DNA of 21,021 bases from a virus. Location of the stretch: the IMG/VR virus record IMGVR_UViG_3300037485_000411, positions 1 through 21,021 of that record; one strand, 5' to 3'. The notes below the pieces were generated by a model. It ran no database searches and was not told the origin of the DNA. It was given only the letters and a program-made list of their open reading frames with translations. The position numbers were made by a program, and so were the translations under genes. Numbering within the stretch: the first letter of the stretch is position 1; the number at the start of each line of letters is the position of its first letter. Shown here one piece after another: positions 2,938 through 19,969 of the stretch.

Positions 2938-5282
2938 TAAATACAGACTTATACATTCAGGATATTAGACAAGATACAGATCCTATTTCTTATATTAAAG
3001 TAGATTTATTTAAAGATGAGAATATAGAGTTAAATTCTAGTATTCAAAATGTAAATGATATTAGTAAAACATTTAGTGATTTTAGTCAGTCGTTTACTAT
3101 TCCTGCAAGTGATAAAAATAACGGTGTATTTCAACACTATTACAATACTGATATAGATGGAACATTCAACCCTAATATAAGAATTAGAGGTTATATTGAA
3201 TGTGGTTCTTTGCCTTTCAAGTATGGTGTAATTCAATTAGAAGATGTAAAGCTAAAAGATATGCAACCCGATAGTTATACGGTGCGATTCTTTTCAGCGA
3301 GTGTAAATTTATCAGATAGGTTTGGTGATGACGATTTAACTACTTTAGATTTAAGCGAGTTTGACCACCAATATAATAGTGATATATTCGATGCAACTTA
3401 TTCCAATAGTTTAGGCGAAGATTTATACTATCCATTAGTAACAAGTGCAAGACCGTATCAAATAGGCACAGCCGATGTTAATGATATTACAAACGTTTCA
3501 GGACAATTACAATTTACAGAATTAAGACCAGCTTTAAAATTGATTCGTATTATTGAAGCGATTGAAACTAAATACAATTTTACTTTTGATAGGGAGTTTT
3601 TAGGTCGTGCGGTGTTTGGTAATTTGCATATGTGGGTGTTTAATAATTTAGGGTTTTCTGTAGATGCTTTAAATGGAGCAGTAGTTGATTTTACAACAAA
3701 AGGAAATTTAGAAGATATAACAGGAGTTACAGTTGATTTAACTAATAATTATTTTATAACAGCTGCTACAGTAGGTTCCCAAATAACAGTAACACCATCA
3801 GTAGGTTATGAAACACAGCCTTACACACTTATAAGATATTTAGATGGGGAATCTTGGACTACTTTTACAGGTGTAGGGACTAGGGTTTTTCCGTTAAGAA
3901 CCGATGCTGATTTAAAACAACATTCTTTTAAAATTTTTGTTGAGGGTACTTTTAAATTTACTTTTAAAATTGTGATGTCTAATATTTTAGTTGGTGCAAA
4001 ATCAGCTACAATGGCAGAGCAAACAGTTAATTTAAATATTTCCATTTCCGCTAATATGCCTAAAATAAAAGTTAGAGATTTTATAACATCACTAATCAAA
4101 ATGTTTAACCTTGCTTTAGTTCCATTAAATGCAAACGGTTTCAGATTGTTACCGCTTGATGACTGGTATTTTCAAGGTAATCTAATAGACTTAACAAAGT
4201 ACATAGATAGCAAAGATGTAAATTTTAAAAGACCTAAATTATTTAAAGATATTTTATTTCAACATCAAAAGTCAGGGCAGTTTTTAAACGAACAATTTAG
4301 AAACAATCAAGGCGGTATTTTAGGTTATGGAGATTTGCAAGCAATTTACCAAATAGATGGAGGACAATTAAAAGTACAAACCGAAGTTGAAAATTTAATG
4401 TTTTCAAGATTGAGTAATATTGCTACAGGCGATGTTACTAACGTTCAAGTTGGTTTATCATTAGATAAAAATACAAAGCCTTACATCGGCAAGCCTTACA
4501 TATTTTACAAATGCGGTTTTCAGAATTATGCTACACCAATAAAAGCAAACGGACACGCAGACATAGATTATACTTATTTAACCTCAACTGAAAACGATTT
4601 TATTTTAGAGCAAGTTTCTAATAGTGTAAATTATTCAACTGATATAAGTACATTTTTATTTAGTGAAATACCTAGAAATTTATATTCTAATTATTGGAGT
4701 GATTACATTTCTGATTTATACTCAACTAAGCGAAGATTATCAAACTGGAAAGCTAATTTACCTATTGGAATAATTATTAGATTAAAGCTAAACGATAGGA
4801 TAGTTATTGATGATAAAACCTATATTATTAATTCGATGAAAACGAACCTGAGTACAGGCGATGTAGATTTAGAATTATTAAATTATATCGGTTTGCCTTT
4901 TACTTCGGTAAATTCAAACATACCATTAACAGCCGATACAATAGACTATTCAGCAGATACTACTCTATTAAGTGCGGATATGACTTATATCTATTTAGCG
5001 GATTTATCACCTATTCCAAACGGTGTTGAATATGAAACTTTATTAGTCAGTTATGCTAGGCAAGATTTTGACTGTAAAATTAGTGCAAATTCGCCTTATT
5101 TAGTTGAAAAAGTAAATACAGGCGATGGCACAAGCTGGATTAATTTAGAAAACGAACTAGGACAAATAACTAACTATTTATTAATTAAAGTTGATGAAAG
5201 TACAACGGATCGAAGTATGGATTTAGAAGTAACTATTGGAGCTGATTCATTTACAATAACTATAACACAACAACAATTATGA
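2934..5282 (+). CDS. Large baseplate/tail protein with BACON-like C-terminal domain
   Basis: A 782-residue protein. The N-terminal region (about 1-140) contains DISKTFSDFSQSFTIPAS and IRGYIECGSLPFKYGVIQLE, a pattern I associate with large tail/baseplate proteins of Bacteroidota siphoviruses. The middle (about 180-650) is beta-rich, with a SLIKMFNLALVPLNANGFRL stretch like those in tail hub or baseplate proteins. The last 85 residues (698-782) form a compact strand-rich module with a GTSWINL core, a Gly turn, a DRSMDLEV strand and a terminal SFTITITQQQ. This matches the BACON/Ig-like layout (W after G, 'R...I/V' strand, final 'I.Q'). BACON domains are thought to bind glycans or mucin, which suggests a surface-binding end. 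The stop overlaps the next small ORF by ATGA. Confidence 0.6.
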   Translation: MINTDLYIQDIRQDTDPISYIKVDLFKDENIELNSSIQNVNDISKTFSDFSQSFTIPASDKNNGVFQHYYNTDIDGTFNPNIRIRGYIECGSLPFKYGVIQLEDVKLKDMQPDSYTVRFFSASVNLSDRFGDDDLTTLDLSEFDHQYNSDIFDATYSNSLGEDLYYPLVTSARPYQIGTADVNDITNVSGQLQFTELRPALKLIRIIEAIETKYNFTFDREFLGRAVFGNLHMWVFNNLGFSVDALNGAVVDFTTKGNLEDITGVTVDLTNNYFITAATVGSQITVTPSVGYETQPYTLIRYLDGESWTTFTGVGTRVFPLRTDADLKQHSFKIFVEGTFKFTFKIVMSNILVGAKSATMAEQTVNLNISISANMPKIKVRDFITSLIKMFNLALVPLNANGFRLLPLDDWYFQGNLIDLTKYIDSKDVNFKRPKLFKDILFQHQKSGQFLNEQFRNNQGGILGYGDLQAIYQIDGGQLKVQTEVENLMFSRLSNIATGDVTNVQVGLSLDKNTKPYIGKPYIFYKCGFQNYATPIKANGHADIDYTYLTSTENDFILEQVSNSVNYSTDISTFLFSEIPRNLYSNYWSDYISDLYSTKRRLSNWKANLPIGIIIRLKLNDRIVIDDKTYIINSMKTNLSTGDVDLELLNYIGLPFTSVNSNIPLTADTIDYSADTTLLSADMTYIYLADLSPIPNGVEYETLLVSYARQDFDCKISANSPYLVEKVNTGDGTSWINLENELGQITNYLLIKVDESTTDRSMDLEVTIGADSFTITITQQQL

Positions 5283-5428
5283 TAAGGGATATAATAGAAT
5301 TATTACAGTTTCAAGAGTGGCATAACACGACTGAAAACATACATATTGCAAAGGGAGGTTATAGATTTCCAAGAACGTTTAAAGAATTATTTAAAAACTC
5401 ATACAGATGGCTATTACCAAGACTATAG
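5279..5428 (+). CDS. Small hypothetical protein (49 aa) between baseplate and tape measure genes
   Basis: An ATG at 5279 overlaps the TGA of the 782-residue gene (ATGA). The frame runs 49 codons to a TAG at 5426-5428, overlapping the tape measure start by 22 bases. The product begins MIRDIIELLQFQEWHNTTEN and ends with a basic, aromatic stretch (KELFKNSYRWLLPRL). There is no signal peptide or membrane segment. It fills what would otherwise be an unexplained 124-base gap in a tightly packed operon, which is the main argument for it being real. Small proteins before the tape measure gene are frequent in siphoviruses, but no function can be read from the sequence. Confidence 0.5.
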   Translation: MIRDIIELLQFQEWHNTTENIHIAKGGYRFPRTFKELFKNSYRWLLPRL

Positions 5429-7316: not shown

Positions 7317-7344
7317 AAAACCGCTAATATCAGTTAGCGGTTTT
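7317..7344. terminator. Bidirectional intrinsic terminator after the tape measure gene
   Basis: A perfect 7-base stem CCGCTAA (7321-7327) / TTAGCGG (7334-7340) is extended to 11 pairs by AAAA/TTTT, with a 6-base loop. On the + strand only four T follow the GC part. On the - strand there are seven (the A-run 7314-7320), so the hairpin is the better terminator for minus-strand transcripts, although all genes here are on the + strand. Confidence 0.8.
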
Positions 7345-7434
7345 AACTTAATCCACACTTTAAAAGATGGTCGTAAGCACAAAGGTTTACAAATATACAA
7401 AAAAATATGTAAAAATTTATATGACGATATATTA

Positions 7435-7452
7435 TTTATACGTTATAGTAGT
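7435..7452 (+). promoter_or_regulatory. 18-base start-abutting motif, copy 1
   Basis: TTTATACGTTATAGTAGT ends exactly at the base before the protease ATG. A copy with 17 of 18 bases identical ends exactly before the ATG at 10141. Both are preceded by ACGATAT (here five extra bases separate the two parts) and both follow an intrinsic terminator, so each needs its own promoter. The motif could be a phage late promoter giving a leaderless or very short leader mRNA, or a translation-initiation element. It does not contain the host TAnnTTTG box. Confidence 0.5.
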
Positions 7453-8559
7453 ATGAAACTATATGAATTAATATTATCGGATGAAGAAGTACAAGGAATT
7501 GATGCTATTTCTGTAGTAGGCAGTCCCGCAATGGAAAGTCAGTTTATTATGCTTTCAGAAGAAAAAAGAGTTTCATTTGCAAAGATTGACAACGAAAAAC
7601 AAATCTTATTAGGGGTTGCAATGATCCCTGAAAAAAAGATTTACAGATTTGATGAAGATACACAAGAGGAGTTTAATGTTTTCTTTTCAAAAGAAACTAT
7701 AAAAAGAGCATCTGAATTATATCTTAAAAAAGGGAATCAAAGCAACGCAAATTTAGAACATTCTAAACTAGCTTTAAGCGGTACAATAGTAGAGAGCTGG
7801 ATAGTTGAAGATTTACAAAAAGACAAAACAGCCTTATACGGTATCGATGCACCTATAGGAAGTTGGGTTGTAGCTATGAAGATTGAAGATAAGGAACAAT
7901 GGGAACTTTGTAAAGAAAACGGTACAGGATTTAGTATCGAGGGAATGTTTAACGAGAAAGTAATATTAACTAAAAACGAGAATAATATGGATTTTAAACA
8001 AATGAAAGACGATTTACTAAACGAGTTCAAAACTCTTTTAGGTAAACAAGTCAAACTAGCGCAATGGAAGTCAGCAGATGGAACATTAACACTAGAAACT
8101 GAAACTGATATGCCTGAAGTGGGTGGAACTATTACACTTGTAACACCTGATGGAAATGTACCAGCACCGATTGGAGAATATACTCTTGCCGATGGTATTG
8201 TTATTTCAGTTGCTGAAGTTGGTGTTATTTCTGAAATTTCAACAATCGAAGAGGAAGAAGTAATTGCACCAGTTGAGGAATTAAGTACAGGAAATTCTAT
8301 TCCTGATGTAGCAGAATTGAAAAATGCAATTAGTTCTATGCTAATTAAATTTAGCGAGGATTTAAATGTAAGATTTACAGCTATTGAAACTAAACTTTCA
8401 GAGCAAAGTAAAGAAAACGAAACTTTAAAAACAGAATTGTCAGCTACTCCAGCAGTTTTAAAAACTACAGTAGCACCGACATCAAAAAATATCGAAGCTC
8501 CAAAAACAATGAGAGGTCGATTAGCACTATCATTAACCGATTTAAAAAATAAAAACTAA
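7453..8559 (+). CDS. Prohead protease, XkdF/S78_2-like, with scaffold-like C-terminus
   Basis: A 368-residue protein. Residues 1-35 contain ELILSDEEVQGIDAISVVGS, the usual start of XkdF-type phage proteases. Residues about 50-165 form the protease core, with NLEHSKLA around His103, a VESW strand and GTGFSIEG around Ser161. His103 and Ser161 are the likely catalytic pair of the S78-type serine proteases that mature HK97-fold capsids. After residue 200 there is a Thr/Gly-rich beta segment, then a Glu/Lys-rich helical part (about 270-340) and a basic tail. This layout resembles an internal scaffold that would be removed on maturation. The major capsid gene follows after only two bases, as expected. 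The start is the ATG immediately after the 18-base motif. Confidence 0.8.
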   Translation: MKLYELILSDEEVQGIDAISVVGSPAMESQFIMLSEEKRVSFAKIDNEKQILLGVAMIPEKKIYRFDEDTQEEFNVFFSKETIKRASELYLKKGNQSNANLEHSKLALSGTIVESWIVEDLQKDKTALYGIDAPIGSWVVAMKIEDKEQWELCKENGTGFSIEGMFNEKVILTKNENNMDFKQMKDDLLNEFKTLLGKQVKLAQWKSADGTLTLETETDMPEVGGTITLVTPDGNVPAPIGEYTLADGIVISVAEVGVISEISTIEEEEVIAPVEELSTGNSIPDVAELKNAISSMLIKFSEDLNVRFTAIETKLSEQSKENETLKTELSATPAVLKTTVAPTSKNIEAPKTMRGRLALSLTDLKNKN

Positions 8560-8561
8560 CA

Positions 8562-9470
8562 ATGGCAACAACAACAACAGTAAACAGTTCCTACGCTGGA
8601 ACGGTAGCAGGGGACATTATAGGAAAAGCTTTTAAAGAAGCGGATACTATTCAAAGAAATTTAGTAACAGTATTGGTAAACATTCCTGTTAAACAAGTAA
8701 TTCGTAAAATCGATTACGGAAATGGTAGAACAGATTATTCTTGCGGATTTACTCCAGCGGGATCTGTTACTATCGGTGAGGTTATCTTAGAGCCTAAGAA
8801 AATCAAAAACGAAGCTGAACTTTGTAAAGAAGATTTCAGAAATGTTTGGGATACGGCTTCTATGGGTTTTTCAGCTCACAACGACAATATGCCAGTAGAT
8901 GAAGAAAGTGCTTTATTAGTTGAAATCTTAGCGGATACAGCTCAAGCAACTGATTCAGATATATGGGTAGGTGATGCTACAGATGATGGGCATTTTGATG
9001 GATTCATTCCTAAATTTTTACTAGATGCTACAGTAATTGACGTTACAGCGGTTGCAGTAACTAAAGCAAATGTAATATCTAAAATAGAGGCGGTTATGGC
9101 AGCAGTTCCTGTAGCTTTGAGAAGAAAACAAGATTTAGTATTTGCAGTATCTAACGATGTGGCTTTGTTTTACCAACAAGCTTTAGTAAGTGCGGGTATT
9201 TCTAACGGTGTTGGTGGTAATGACTTCCAATTAAGATACGGAAACTATGTACTAGAAATAGTAAACGGTTTACCTGATTCAACTATGGTAGTTTACCAAA
9301 AGAAAAATCTTTACTTTGGTACAGGTTTGTTAAGCGACCACAATGAAGTTCGTATTAAAGATATGGATGATACAGATTTGAGCGGTACAGTACGCTACAA
9401 AATGGTTTATACTGCAGGAATTCAGTATGTAAGAGGTGCAGAGATTGTGTTATACACAACTTTCGTATAG
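8562..9470 (+). CDS. Major capsid protein (HK97-fold, inferred)
   Basis: A 302-residue protein directly downstream of the prohead protease (two-base gap). It begins MATTTTVNSSYAGTVAGDII, continues with a KAFKEADTIQRNLVTVLVNI helix/strand region, and carries KIDYGNGRTDYSCGFTPAGS and LCKEDFRNVWDTASMGFSAH. The mid-part has a VPVALRRKQDLVFAVSNDVA segment and the C-terminal half GTVRYKMVYTAGIQYVRGAE. These elements recur in major capsid proteins of Bacteroidota siphoviruses. The protein would polymerise into the capsid shell. It is followed by a GC-rich hairpin and more strongly biased to high-expression-like codons (GGT, GAA, AAA) than its neighbours, though I judged this only by eye. Confidence 0.75.
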   Translation: MATTTTVNSSYAGTVAGDIIGKAFKEADTIQRNLVTVLVNIPVKQVIRKIDYGNGRTDYSCGFTPAGSVTIGEVILEPKKIKNEAELCKEDFRNVWDTASMGFSAHNDNMPVDEESALLVEILADTAQATDSDIWVGDATDDGHFDGFIPKFLLDATVIDVTAVAVTKANVISKIEAVMAAVPVALRRKQDLVFAVSNDVALFYQQALVSAGISNGVGGNDFQLRYGNYVLEIVNGLPDSTMVVYQKKNLYFGTGLLSDHNEVRIKDMDDTDLSGTVRYKMVYTAGIQYVRGAEIVLYTTFV

Positions 9471-9522: not shown

Positions 9523-10056
9523 ATGGCTTGTGAATTTATTACTAGCGGTCGTTTACTTGAATGTGTAAATAACACTTCAGGTTTAAGAAACGCTTACTTT
9601 GCAAAATGGTTAGACTACGAGTTTGTAGTTGCTGCATCAGAGCTTACAAGTATAGGAACTTTAGCTGAGGTTTTTAAATTTGAACTTAAAAACGTTGGAA
9701 ATATTCCACTTGAAACAGAAACAAGTTCTGTAGATAACGGAACTGTTTTTTACGATGCGAAAATTGATTTAGTTTTAACAGGATTGACTGCTCCTTTAGT
9801 TAATCAGGCTAAATTACTTTCAAGAGATAGAAGTGTTATCTTTATTGAGGATAATATGGGTAAATTCCATTTATTTGGAATTGCTAACGGTGCTAACAAA
9901 ACTACAGGAACTAGAGAAATAGGTGGCGATTTAGGAGGTTTTTACGGACTTAAAATGAGCTTTCAAACATTAGAGCCTGATACAGCTCCAATATTGAGTT
10001 CAAGTGCTGTAACTTCTTTACTAGCTATCGTTTCATCAGTTTATGTGAATGATTAA
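9523..10056 (+). CDS. Putative major tail (tube) protein
   Basis: A 177-residue protein. It starts MACEFITSGRLLECVNNTSG followed by NAYFAKWLDYEFV. The CxFITxGRxxxC opening and the following aromatic stretch occur in small structural proteins located just after the capsid gene in Flavobacteriia phages. A central set of strands is followed by GKFHLFGIANGANKTTGTRE, a GGDLGGFYGLKMSFQTLEPD segment and an Ala/Ser/Val-rich C-terminus. The size, beta-rich look and separate position with its own terminator (10078-10108) suit an abundantly made tail tube subunit. A second head protein (decoration or head completion) remains possible. The gene starts 19 bases after the hairpin that follows the capsid gene. 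Confidence 0.5.
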   Translation: MACEFITSGRLLECVNNTSGLRNAYFAKWLDYEFVVAASELTSIGTLAEVFKFELKNVGNIPLETETSSVDNGTVFYDAKIDLVLTGLTAPLVNQAKLLSRDRSVIFIEDNMGKFHLFGIANGANKTTGTREIGGDLGGFYGLKMSFQTLEPDTAPILSSSAVTSLLAIVSSVYVND

Positions 10057-10077: not shown

Positions 10078-10108
10078 AGCCTACTAATTAATTTTAGTAG
10101 GCTTTTTT
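10078..10108 (+). terminator. Intrinsic terminator after the putative tail tube gene
   Basis: A stem of 9 perfect pairs (AGCCTACTA 10078-10086 with TAGTAGGCT 10095-10103), extended by one A-T pair, has a 6-base loop and is followed by six T (10103-10108). This is a canonical Rho-independent terminator on the + strand. Confidence 0.85.
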
Positions 10109-10122
10109 ATTACAAAACGATA

Positions 10123-10140
10123 TTTATACGTTATATTAGT
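10123..10140 (+). promoter_or_regulatory. 18-base start-abutting motif, copy 2
   Basis: TTTATACGTTATATTAGT ends at the base before the ATG at 10141. It matches copy 1 (7435-7452) at 17 of 18 positions and is likewise preceded by ACGATAT. Lying directly behind a strong terminator, it is the only candidate visible for restarting transcription of the portal unit. Confidence 0.5.
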
Positions 10141-10434
10141 ATGGTAATATTAAAACCCTCAGAAGCTACTCATTCAATTACAATTATAGCTCGCAAAAAT
10201 GCGAGTGCTATTTCTATTGTAATAAAGAATGAAAGTAAGAATACAACTGAAACTATTGATGATATTTCAACTACTTATTCAAATGGCTATTTGACTTTTG
10301 AAATAACTAAAACTGTTTTAGAGCAAGAAAGTTTTGAGTATTCGGTTTACAATTTTTCAGATTCAGAATTATTATTTAGAGGAAAAGCATTTGCGACAAA
10401 TCAAACAGATTTGCAAAATTATAAAATAAATTAA
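10141..10434 (+). CDS. Small conserved phage protein upstream of portal
   Basis: A 97-residue protein, MVILKPSEATHSITIIARKN onward, with alternating polar/apolar residues that suggest an all-beta fold. The C-terminal part contains LLFRGKAFATNQTDLQNYKI. I recall similar small proteins ('ILKPS...' start, 'YRGK.F.TdQTD...Y' end) near portal genes of Bacteroidota phages, where they have no assigned role. There is no signal peptide or membrane segment. It starts immediately after the 18-base motif and ends one base before the portal start, so it leads the portal transcription unit. A minor head or connector component is the best contextual guess. Confidence 0.6.
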   Translation: MVILKPSEATHSITIIARKNASAISIVIKNESKNTTETIDDISTTYSNGYLTFEITKTVLEQESFEYSVYNFSDSELLFRGKAFATNQTDLQNYKIN

Positions 10435-10435
10435 A

Positions 10436-12124
10436 ATGGGAGATGTTAGAGCAATTAGTTTGAGTTCACACATAACAGAAGTATTTCAAGAATTTAAACC
10501 TAGTGGTAAAACTTATATTTTAAATGGTAAAAATAACGTTGGTTATGATTACGTTATTGACAGATATAAATATTCACCAACAAACTCAGCAATTTTAGAT
10601 TCTTACTATTCTTATATTTATGGGCGTGGATTAACTGCTAATTATACAGTTAATCAGGCAAATCAAATGGCTGTTATTCAAAAGCTATTCTCAAAAGATA
10701 ATGTAAAAAAAATAGTTAAAGATTTTGCATTATTTCACGAGGCTAGTTTTGAAATTATATTGGGGAAAACAGGAAACGAAATAGCGCAAATAAATCACTT
10801 GCCTAAAAATAAAGTTGTACCTACAGAGGCAAACGAATTCGGTAAAATTCCATCTTATTGGTATTCTTATAACTGGAATGATTTACGTAAATATCCTGCT
10901 ATTGAAATACCAGCTTTCACACAAGGCACCACAGAAAAAAAGACAATATTTGTAATTAAAGAGTATACTATTGATGACTTCTATTTTGCAAGACCATCTT
11001 ACTATTCAGGATTAAACTATGCAGAATTAGAAGAACAAATATCAATATATTGCATAAACCACATTAAAAACGGTTTGAGTGCTGGTTATATTATTAATGT
11101 AAATGAGGGTATAACAGACGATGAGGTTAAAGATGCATTTGAAAGAAATGTGATTAAAAAATTTACAGGATCAGAAAACGCAAATAAGTTCATCTTATCA
11201 TTTAACTCAAATAAAGATAGTGCAACAACTTTAGAAGCGGTACAAGTTGCAGACGCACATCAGCAATATCAATTTTTAACAGAAGAAGCAAGAAAGCAAT
11301 TATTAACAGCGCATAAAGTTGTTAGTGGTGCAATTTTAGGAATACAAACAGCAACAGGTTTCAGTAGCAATGCAGACGAAATAGAAACTGCATTCAATGA
11401 AACGATGTTAAACGTTATAAAGCCATTACAGGACACTTTAACCGATGGATTTGAATATGTATTAGGACAAAATAATATCACGTTACAACTGTATTTTGAG
11501 CCTTTAAGACCTAAAATAATTCAAGCTCCTGTAGTTAAGATGTCAAGCGAAAAAAAAAAGATTGAAGATTTTGGAAGCGATATAGATTTGAATGTTTGGG
11601 AATTAGTAGATAGCATTCCTGTAGATTATGAAAAAGAAGATGAATTAGATATTGAAGTTTTAAAGCTAAATAATAGATATGAATTTGCAAATGTTTCTAC
11701 AGGAGTAGCAAAGACAAAAAGCAAATCGGAGCAAGATACAGATTTGTATATTACACGTTATAGATATTCAGGGAATCAAAATCCTGAAAGAGAATTTTGC
11801 AAAAAAATGATGGGTGCTAAAAAACTTTATAGAAAAGAAGATATAGAAGCGATGAGCAATCAAAATGTAAATCCGGGCTTTGGAATGAGACCAAACCCGA
11901 ATGAGCCTTATAATATATTTCTTTGGAAAGGTGGCGGTTTATTAAGTGATGAATTTCCAAATGGAACTTGTCGCCATTTTTGGGTACGTGAAATGTACAG
12001 AAAAATAGGAACGGGTAAAAATACAGCAGCAACGCCATCAACACCAGCACAAGTTAGAAAAGCGGGAGAAATTCCTCCAACAAATAATCCAAAAGTGTAT
12101 ATTGCACCACACGATATGAAATAA
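10436..12124 (+). CDS. Portal protein with additional C-terminal domain
   Basis: A 562-residue protein. Residues about 1-370 look like a portal. They include DRYKYSPTNSAILDSYYSYI, a KIVKDFALFHEASFEIILGK region, a basic NHLPKNKVVPTEANEFGKIP turn, an AELEEQISIYCINHIKNGLS helix and the HKVVSGAILGIQTATGFSSN-to-LQDTL wing/stem helices. The portal forms the 12-mer DNA channel and binds the packaging motor. From about residue 435 to 525 there is a separate module with REFCKKMMGAKKLYRKEDIE, VNPGFG, IFLWKGGG and GTCRHFWVREMY. This Cys/His/Trp-rich module is familiar to me from the C-termini of head-assembly proteins of Bacteroidota phages. The extreme C-terminus is Pro/Thr-rich. A connector gene follows after two bases. 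Confidence 0.7.
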   Translation: MGDVRAISLSSHITEVFQEFKPSGKTYILNGKNNVGYDYVIDRYKYSPTNSAILDSYYSYIYGRGLTANYTVNQANQMAVIQKLFSKDNVKKIVKDFALFHEASFEIILGKTGNEIAQINHLPKNKVVPTEANEFGKIPSYWYSYNWNDLRKYPAIEIPAFTQGTTEKKTIFVIKEYTIDDFYFARPSYYSGLNYAELEEQISIYCINHIKNGLSAGYIINVNEGITDDEVKDAFERNVIKKFTGSENANKFILSFNSNKDSATTLEAVQVADAHQQYQFLTEEARKQLLTAHKVVSGAILGIQTATGFSSNADEIETAFNETMLNVIKPLQDTLTDGFEYVLGQNNITLQLYFEPLRPKIIQAPVVKMSSEKKKIEDFGSDIDLNVWELVDSIPVDYEKEDELDIEVLKLNNRYEFANVSTGVAKTKSKSEQDTDLYITRYRYSGNQNPEREFCKKMMGAKKLYRKEDIEAMSNQNVNPGFGMRPNPNEPYNIFLWKGGGLLSDEFPNGTCRHFWVREMYRKIGTGKNTAATPSTPAQVRKAGEIPPTNNPKVYIAPHDMK

Positions 12125-15554: not shown

Positions 15555-15562
15555 TATATTTG
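15555..15562 (+). promoter_or_regulatory. Possible Bacteroidota-type -7 box before the lysis genes
   Basis: TATATTTG matches TAnnTTTG and is placed 39 bases before the ATG at 15601. No good TTG lies at the -33 position, so this is weaker than the promoters of the early region. The leader that follows contains a near direct repeat (CCACAATAAT 15581-15590, CCACAAATAAT 15592-15602) ending at the start codon. Confidence 0.4.
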
Positions 15563-19056: not shown

Positions 19057-19251
19057 ATGAAAACAGCAGTAGAATGGTTAATAGAAAAACTTACACCATC
19101 AATAGCTTTGCAACAAAAGTATATTAATGAGTTAAAAGAACAAGCCAAAAAAATGGAAAAGCAACAGATAATTGATGCAGTAGAATGGAACTATAAATCA
19201 AATATGGGAGAAGTTTATTATAATGCAACTTTTAAACCTACTAAACTATGA
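19057..19251 (+). CDS. Conserved small phage protein (64 aa)
   Basis: A 64-residue protein: MKTAVEWLIEKLTPSIALQQ, YINELKEQAKKMEKQQII, DAVEWNYKS and a C-terminal YYNATFKP. The 'TAVEWL.e.l......q.....f..AK.mEk.Qii.A' pattern is very common in small proteins of Flavobacteriia phages and prophages, always without a function. It is helical and soluble. Its TGA overlaps the ATG of the next very small gene (ATGA at 19248). Confidence 0.75.
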   Translation: MKTAVEWLIEKLTPSIALQQKYINELKEQAKKMEKQQIIDAVEWNYKSNMGEVYYNATFKPTKL

Positions 19252-19343
19252 TATATCATTCAATAATAATCGGAACTTCAATAGGAGTTATTTTTACAGT
19301 AGTTTACGGAATCGTATCATTTATAAAAAATATGATGAGATGA
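19248..19343 (+). CDS. Very small membrane protein (31 aa)
   Basis: An ATG at 19248 overlaps the previous TGA, and its TGA at 19341-19343 overlaps the ATG at 19340 of the methyltransferase. The product, MIYHSIIIGTSIGVIFTVVY followed by GIVSFIKNMMR, is one transmembrane helix with a basic end. Overlap at both junctions argues strongly that it is translated. It is built like the 35-residue GTG-start protein at 18758. Function unknown. Confidence 0.65.
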   Translation: MIYHSIIIGTSIGVIFTVVYGIVSFIKNMMR

Positions 19344-19969
19344 AAGTATTAAATCTTTATGCCTGTTTAGGTGGCAATAGATATAAATGGACAGATTGTG
19401 AAGTTACAGCAGTTGAATTAGACCTAGAAGCTGCAAGATTATATCAAGAGCGTTTTCCTAATGATACAGTAATAATTGCAGATGCACACGAATATTTACT
19501 TAAAAATTATATGAATTTTGATTTTATTTGGAGTTCGCCACCTTGCCCAAGTCATTCGAGAGCAAGAAATTATAATACAACTTATGAGGCATTATATCCT
19601 GATATGAAGTTATACGAAGAAATCATACTACTCGAAACAAGATTTAAAGGAAAATATTGCGTAGAAAATGTAATTCCATATTATGAACCATTAATTAATG
19701 GAATAAAAAGAGGTAGGCACTTATACTGGACTAATTTTAATTTGCCAAATAATTTAAACGAAAGAAAAACTCCAGTATTTGGAAATGTAAAAAATGAATT
19801 ACAATTACTTTGTGATTTTCACGATTATGATTTTAGAAAATACAAAGGCAAACAATCAGTTACTAAAATGGCACGTAACCTAGTAGATTATGAAGCTGGA
19901 TTAACTATTTTTAATACAATGAGAGGAATAATAAACGAAACAAATATTTCACAAACTAAACTATTTTAA
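19340..19969 (+). CDS. Compact cytosine-5 DNA methyltransferase, orphan
   Basis: A 209-residue protein. A longer frame opens at 19223, but the family-like sequence begins at the ATG at 19340 (MKVLNLYACLGGNRYKW, motif I, binding AdoMet), which also has the ATGA overlap with the previous very small gene. Motif II-like AVELDLEAARLY follows. Motif IV is FIWSSPPCPSHS with the catalytic Cys69. Motif VI is CVENV (Glu109, Asn110). RGRHLYWTNF (126-133) sits where motif VIII is expected, and TKMARNLVDYEAG fits motif X. At 209 residues it is far shorter than bacterial C5 methyltransferases (over 300), so the target-recognition region is minimal. No restriction endonuclease is adjacent. Protection of phage DNA from host restriction is the likely role. 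Confidence 0.75.
   Translation: MKVLNLYACLGGNRYKWTDCEVTAVELDLEAARLYQERFPNDTVIIADAHEYLLKNYMNFDFIWSSPPCPSHSRARNYNTTYEALYPDMKLYEEIILLETRFKGKYCVENVIPYYEPLINGIKRGRHLYWTNFNLPNNLNERKTPVFGNVKNELQLLCDFHDYDFRKYKGKQSVTKMARNLVDYEAGLTIFNTMRGIINETNISQTKLF

Follow-up and report, generated by a model that had tools for sequence, protein, structure and literature searches.

A two-part element at the start codons of structural genes in Bacteroidota phages, a probable late promoter for a phage ECF-type sigma factor

We propose that a large group of tailed Bacteroidota phages transcribes its structural genes from a two-part late promoter that is read by a phage-encoded sigma factor and gives mostly leaderless mRNAs, a reading that the genome sequences make very probable. 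The element consists of a CAAAA box, a gap of 11 or 13 nt, and the core TWCGTTANWWTAGT, which is followed by an A. We describe it in a viral DNA of 21,021 nucleotides (IMG/VR record IMGVR_UViG_3300037485_000411; hereafter the window) and in related phages, where it is restricted to phage DNA, stands ahead of the same genes, varies in concert at different sites of one genome, and occurs together with a sigma factor gene. From these patterns we infer its dependence on the phage sigma, its exact start site, and the late timing of its use.

Two copies in the window and a bipartite architecture

Reading the letters of the window without database searches had drawn attention to two near-identical 18-base copies, and both are as described: TTTATACGTTATAGTAGT at 7435-7452 and TTTATACGTTATATTAGT at 10123-10140 agree at 17 of 18 bases, share the form TTTATACGTTATA(G/T)TAGT, and directly adjoin the ATGs at 7453 and 10141, respectively. 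The window holds no other match at up to 3 mismatches (mean in shuffled sequence, 0.17). That sequence-only reading was also right that each copy heads a structural unit, with protease and capsid-like genes behind the first and pre-portal and portal genes behind the second, and that neither gene is preceded on the + strand by the TAnnTTTG box of the host. The ORFs behind both copies are real genes. Two further features held up in part. The sequence ACGATAT does lie 5' of both copies, but at 7424-7430 and 10117-10123, which is 29 nt from the ATG at the first site and 24 nt at the second; out of register and not conserved in relatives, it was dropped as a shared element, and the conserved upstream box is instead CAAAA, to which site 1 of the window is a poor match (Table 1). 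Likewise, a strong terminator does precede the second copy, stopping ~30 nt 5' of its ATG and 3 nt before the upstream box, but ahead of 7453 there is only a hairpin ~90 nt upstream with a weak tail on the + strand. The leading TTT of the 18-mer is weakly conserved, leaving a conserved core of the 14 bases that adjoin the ATG. Hexamers of the sigma-70 type, considered as another candidate, were no commoner than in shuffles.

Table 1. Features of the window around the two sites
Feature	Position	Strand	Remarks
Terminator-like hairpin, bidirectional	7317..7344		Between tape-measure gene and first site; 4-T tail on +, better on -
Degenerate upstream box CGATA, at -28	7425..7429	+	Consensus CAAAA, present at this place in relative G001
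Core promoter element TACGTTATAGTAGT, -14 to -1, protease/capsid unit (putative)	7439..7452	+	
Predicted transcription start, A of ATG, putatively leaderless	7453	+	
XkdF-like head maturation protease/scaffold, first gene of unit	7453..8559	+	PF14550, PHROG 24921/3017
Major-capsid-like gene, presumably co-transcribed	8562..9470	+	Own motif in none of 49 orthologues
Third gene of protease/capsid unit	9523..10056	+	PHROG 19091; own motif in none of 51 orthologues
Intrinsic terminator closing capsid unit	10078..10109	+	Stem 10078-10103, T-rich tail
Upstream box CAAAA, C at -28	10113..10117	+	
Core promoter element TACGTTATATTAGT, -14 to -1, portal unit (putative)	10127..10140	+	
Predicted transcription start, A of ATG, putatively leaderless	10141	+	
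Small pre-portal gene, first gene of unit	10141..10434	+	PHROG 31097 relative
Portal gene, second gene of unit	10436..12124	+	PHROG 33693

The architecture of the element emerges from 55 non-redundant sites that were chosen by the core alone, with up to 2 mismatches. Relative to the ATG, C-12 is present in 54 of these, and G-11 and T-10 in all 55; upstream, CAAA starts at exactly -30 in 20 sites and at -28 in 7, while no column of 1000 shuffles exceeded 5. Core matches that head no ORF mostly lack the CAAAA box, and with both boxes combined in one model, 20 records yield 43 sites that score above 18, where 0.7 would be expected. CAAAA at -28 or -30 has the character of an ECF-type upstream (-35) element at a defined spacing. 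In textbook ECF promoters the spacing between the boxes is longer than the 11 or 13 nt seen here. On the assumption behind the numbering, a start at the A of the ATG, CGT occupies -12 to -10, the place at which ECF sigma factors recognize the -10 box (PMC6372665), and a CGT box at -10 has been reported as ECF-type in F. psychrophilum (PMC9723704).

Other observations in the window concern its surroundings. On the - strand, a host-type box, TATATTTG, at 7390-7397 points away from the first late site, with the minus-strand terminator (7344-7317) ~50 nt beyond it, and a small antisense RNA could arise from this box. The window also encodes a phage lysozyme (16148-16624) and a C-5 cytosine methylase-like protein (19223-19969). 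Compared with phage records at the DNA level, the window had no match, and a portal search of GTDB genomes found no relative.

Conservation at fixed genes and restriction to phage

The sequence-only reading had staked itself on the motif recurring at the same genes in related phages, and it does so: dozens of contigs from Bacteroidota phages have the bipartite element 5' of these genes, as do two cultured Nonlabens phages, P12024S and P12024L, whose portal is 36% identical to that of the window. In a motif-blind comparison, with orthologues collected by protein similarity, starts taken from the alignment, and the motif unused in selection, GTTA occurs at -11 in 41 of 43 protease starts (24 distinct upstream sequences) and 43 of 46 pre-portal starts (30 distinct upstream sequences), or 84 of 89 together. 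Among ten other gene families, including capsid, portal and tape measure, it occurs at that position in 0 of 229 starts.

In some phages with a deviating element, the deviation is alike at both genes. One relative (L025) has CTGTATTATATA at both non-homologous sites, two others (L042 and L045) have TTGTTATTA-type variants at both, and P12024S and P12024L have TTCGTTANTATAGT at both. Such concerted change at two non-homologous sites is what a shared trans-acting reader predicts. The order of genes can be followed in G001, a 34.6 kb relative of the window phage: sigma, a terminase-like gene, site 1 (ahead of a 198 aa gene), tail genes, site 2 (protease and capsid region), and site 3 (pre-portal and portal). 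The G001 protease is 92% identical to that of the window, but another protein (MAISYSTAVDIRG...) stands at the capsid position (window 8562-9470), which suggests module exchange inside the unit behind the same promoter.

When 2.9 million viral contigs (IMG/VR) were scanned for TACGTTATANTAGTATG, 107 stretches had the exact motif followed by ATG, and all but ~12 of these head genuine phage ORFs. Three families account for most of the ORFs: the pre-portal protein, the protease, and a protein of ~200 aa whose gene follows the terminase-like gene in G001. The matches often lie ~30 nt downstream of a T-run. In 257 Gb of GTDB bacterial and archaeal genomes the same 17-mer occurs only 28 times, with a single occurrence of this kind, on a phage-like contig. 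Records covering the region of structural or late units carry 2-7 copies per genome. In P12024S, CGTTA lies at -12 of gp01, gp05, gp08, gp41, gp44 and gp45 and at -11 of gp35, so that it heads 7 of 59 genes; CGTTA/TAACG occurs 110 times in the 35.7 kb, a frequency that predicts ~0.1.

The genome of P12024S (L163) shows a further arrangement. Three short minus-strand ORFs, gp04 (2750-2980), gp07 (5123-5365) and gp40 (23811-23927), each with a host TAnnTTTG box, stand back-to-back with the putative late promoters of gp05, gp08 and gp41, and at these three pairs the host box either overlaps the upstream box of the late promoter or lies next to it. Possibly these pairs act as an early/late antisense switch.

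A candidate phage sigma factor and other possible readers

Most of the longer related records encode an ECF-type sigma factor of 148-185 aa with sigma2 and sigma4 regions, and gp33 of P12024S is annotated with Sigma-70 region 2. Pfam finds PF04542 in 17 of 24 motif-carrying or related records, and a profile search adds homologues in further records, including four of the seven that Pfam missed; the several records with no sigma match are fragments. The window is itself a fragment that stops short of the region concerned and has no sigma gene, and relatives indicate that its phage would carry the gene outside the sequenced part. A tblastn search of the sigma proteins against cultured phages found P12024S and P12024L only.

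The assignment to the ECF class draws on several comparisons. All 17 aligned proteins match NCBIfam sigma70-ECF, that of G001 falling below the curated cut-off, and D28, V30, Q31 and Y34 are invariant among them, in agreement with the sigma2 region 2 signature (D/E)D.VQ..(Y/F). Matches to PDB profiles are ECF sigmas across both domains, with SigL matching over 12-143, and the proteins have the domain make-up of ECF (group 4) factors, a C-terminal sigma4 with neither sigma1 nor sigma3, even if the Pfam sigma4 model gives a weak match in only 1 of 17 members. An AlphaFold model of the G001 protein (mean pLDDT 78, pTM 0.41, with domain placement uncertain) matches E. coli sigmaE, SigL, SigH and SigW, and one domain of the model matches region 4 of E. 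coli sigmaE (2h27; TM 0.75 by target, 2.1 A).

The co-occurrence of sigma gene and motif is by itself weak evidence, both being core features of the same phages. The spacing of the boxes varies with the clade of the sigma: the C of the upstream box lies at -28 in 16 of 17 sites of phages with clade I sigmas (50-97% identical to that of G001) and at -30/-31 in 25 of 30 sites of phages with clade II sigmas, a correspondence that is confounded with phylogenetic descent, and the spacing is common to non-homologous promoters within each genome. The sigma genes themselves have two peculiarities. In three of clade II, a motif-like TACGTTATATTAAG..ATG occurs inside the coding sequence (G010:C1:3227, G009:C1:5438 and G013:C1:21483), probably as a coding coincidence and possibly as an internal start, and one homologue (L258; G012:C1:11733-12251) has a single in-frame TGA, which is a disrupted gene or an assembly error.

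The same promoter might instead be read by a host factor, either a host ECF sigma or sigma-A acting on a degenerate -7 box with the help of a phage activator, but we regard this as unlikely. Host ECF promoters with a CGT box exist in Flavobacteria (PMC9723704), and TATAWTAG is like TAnnTTTG at several positions; against this, the motif is essentially absent from host genomes, and the box spacing follows the clade of the phage sigma. The sigma-A boxes of F. johnsoniae have T-12, A-11, T-8, T-7, T-6 and G-5 and exclude G at -10/-9 (PMC6847099), whereas C-12 and G-11 are near-invariant here. Moreover, TATAWTAG used as a -7 box would place the start inside the coding region, and the TAnnTTTG -7 box of Bacteroidota sigma-A, which does occur in the early region of the same phages, is unmatched at the late sites.

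A role in translation initiation or at the mRNA level, with the element recognized by a ribosome or an RNA-binding protein or serving as a processing site on transcripts from upstream, is improbable. It was raised as an alternative in the sequence-only reading, and the position of the element next to the ATG at most sites would fit it, as would A at -3, -6 and -13, positions where A is a positive determinant of translation in F. johnsoniae; C and G do not figure among the determinants there (PMC6847099). At 11 non-redundant sites, however, the bipartite unit lies 1, 4, 11, 12, 19 or 23 nt 5' of the ATG, mostly with the upstream box still at the same distance from the core, and in all 11 the core is followed by A. 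(A twelfth match, at distance 4, was left out because it falls within sigma coding sequence and its upstream box is poor.) That the unit can stand up to 23 nt from the ATG and is still followed by A every time argues for a promoter rather than a ribosome signal. Also against a translational role, neighbouring structural genes such as the capsid gene do without the element, and a terminator often lies directly upstream of it. The unit thus ends at a fixed A, usually but not necessarily that of the start codon; we infer that this A is the transcription start, and the position of the element together with A at +1 predicts leaderless mRNA.

A promoter for a single-subunit RNA polymerase of the T7 type, or for another phage polymerase, is highly improbable: a compact, highly conserved element ending at +1 recalls T7-type promoters, but no cognate polymerase was found as PF00940 in 18 records, where the same search recovered T7's own polymerase as a positive control and none in G001 or P12024S, and a two-box layout with CGT at -12 to -10 is in keeping with a sigma factor. 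Equally improbable is an operator or other regulator-bound repeat with no promoter function, as a multi-copy element in intergenic gaps might be, given that the element always points towards the gene, has a fixed place at the start codon and is not palindromic, and that the stretch from terminator to ATG at 10110-10140 has hardly room for another promoter.

A proposed late circuit and its relation to known systems

The phage-specific late promoter producing leaderless mRNA that was first suggested from the letters of the window fits all the computed evidence, "late" and "leaderless" being predictions from sequence. In the circuit that we propose, host sigma-A would transcribe the early region and the phage sigma gene from TAnnTTTG promoters. 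The phage ECF-type sigma (sigma2 and sigma4, about 150-185 aa) would then bind host core RNA polymerase, its sigma2 reading the CGTTA box and its sigma4 reading CAAAA, with (A)CAAAA at -30 (or -28) as one promoter half and the core at -14 to -1 as the -10 half. Transcription would begin at the A after the core, which in most units is the A of the start codon, to give leaderless structural mRNAs, with a leader of 1-23 nt in a minority of units; expression of the head and tail units would be the last step of the circuit. On the + strand of the window, intergenic TAnnTTTG boxes occur only at 15555, 17462, 17690, 20129 and 20808, all within what is presumably the early region; the structural units have none ahead of them. 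A host box lies close upstream of the sigma genes of G001, G016, G002 and G013; many other sigma genes have none directly upstream, and their transcription would have to begin further away.

Phage sigma factors with late promoters of their own are known from phiEco32 (gp36) and phage 7-11 (gp47), where, as we propose here, a sigma-like protein of the phage diverts host core RNA polymerase towards a few late promoters, early genes depend on host sigma, and, in 7-11, the promoters are bipartite (PMC8948821). The phages concerned are enterobacterial, their promoters (tAATGTAtA and GTAAtg-16-aCTA) have starts 6-9 nt away, and leaderless transcripts are unmentioned in that account (PMC8948821), whereas here we find an ECF-type CGT -10 element, a -28/-30 box and a predicted start at the start codon. 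The host ECF promoters of F. psychrophilum (motif SM6) control host genes, for example those for T9SS components (PMC9723704), while the phage motif is a longer one that host genomes practically lack. The two-box element and the sigma4 domain also set these phages apart from the T4 gp55 type, since T4 late promoters consist of a -10-like element only and require the sliding clamp. The proposed use of a phage sigma nonetheless has its counterpart in the late or middle sigma factors T4 gp55 and SPO1 gp28/gp34, which are essential for later gene classes (PMC9429907). Our literature searches for a late promoter or phage-sigma circuit in these Bacteroidota phages, and for the motif or leaderless late promoters in Bacteroidota phages, found nothing, and a start-codon-coupled, ECF-type version of the phage-sigma late promoter appears to be undescribed.

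The element allows late units, their strand and the starts of late genes to be called straight from metagenomic contigs, and it offers naturally diversified sigma-promoter pairs for the study of ECF specificity and suggests an orthogonal expression system for Flavobacteria. Leaderless host mRNAs are rare in F. psychrophilum (5.5%; PMC9723704), and the efficient leaderless translation of abundant phage proteins therefore needs explaining. We think it likely, with less assurance than we give the promoter itself, that across nearly all structural units of a phage in this large and mostly uncultured group, a single ECF-type phage sigma fixes +1 at the A that opens the start codon, and that promoters and their spacing have co-evolved with the sigma across clades. 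The virion proteins would then be translated from leaderless mRNAs, a kind that is rare in the hosts. Through the element, it becomes possible to test whether a phage can depend on leaderless translation for making its structural proteins.
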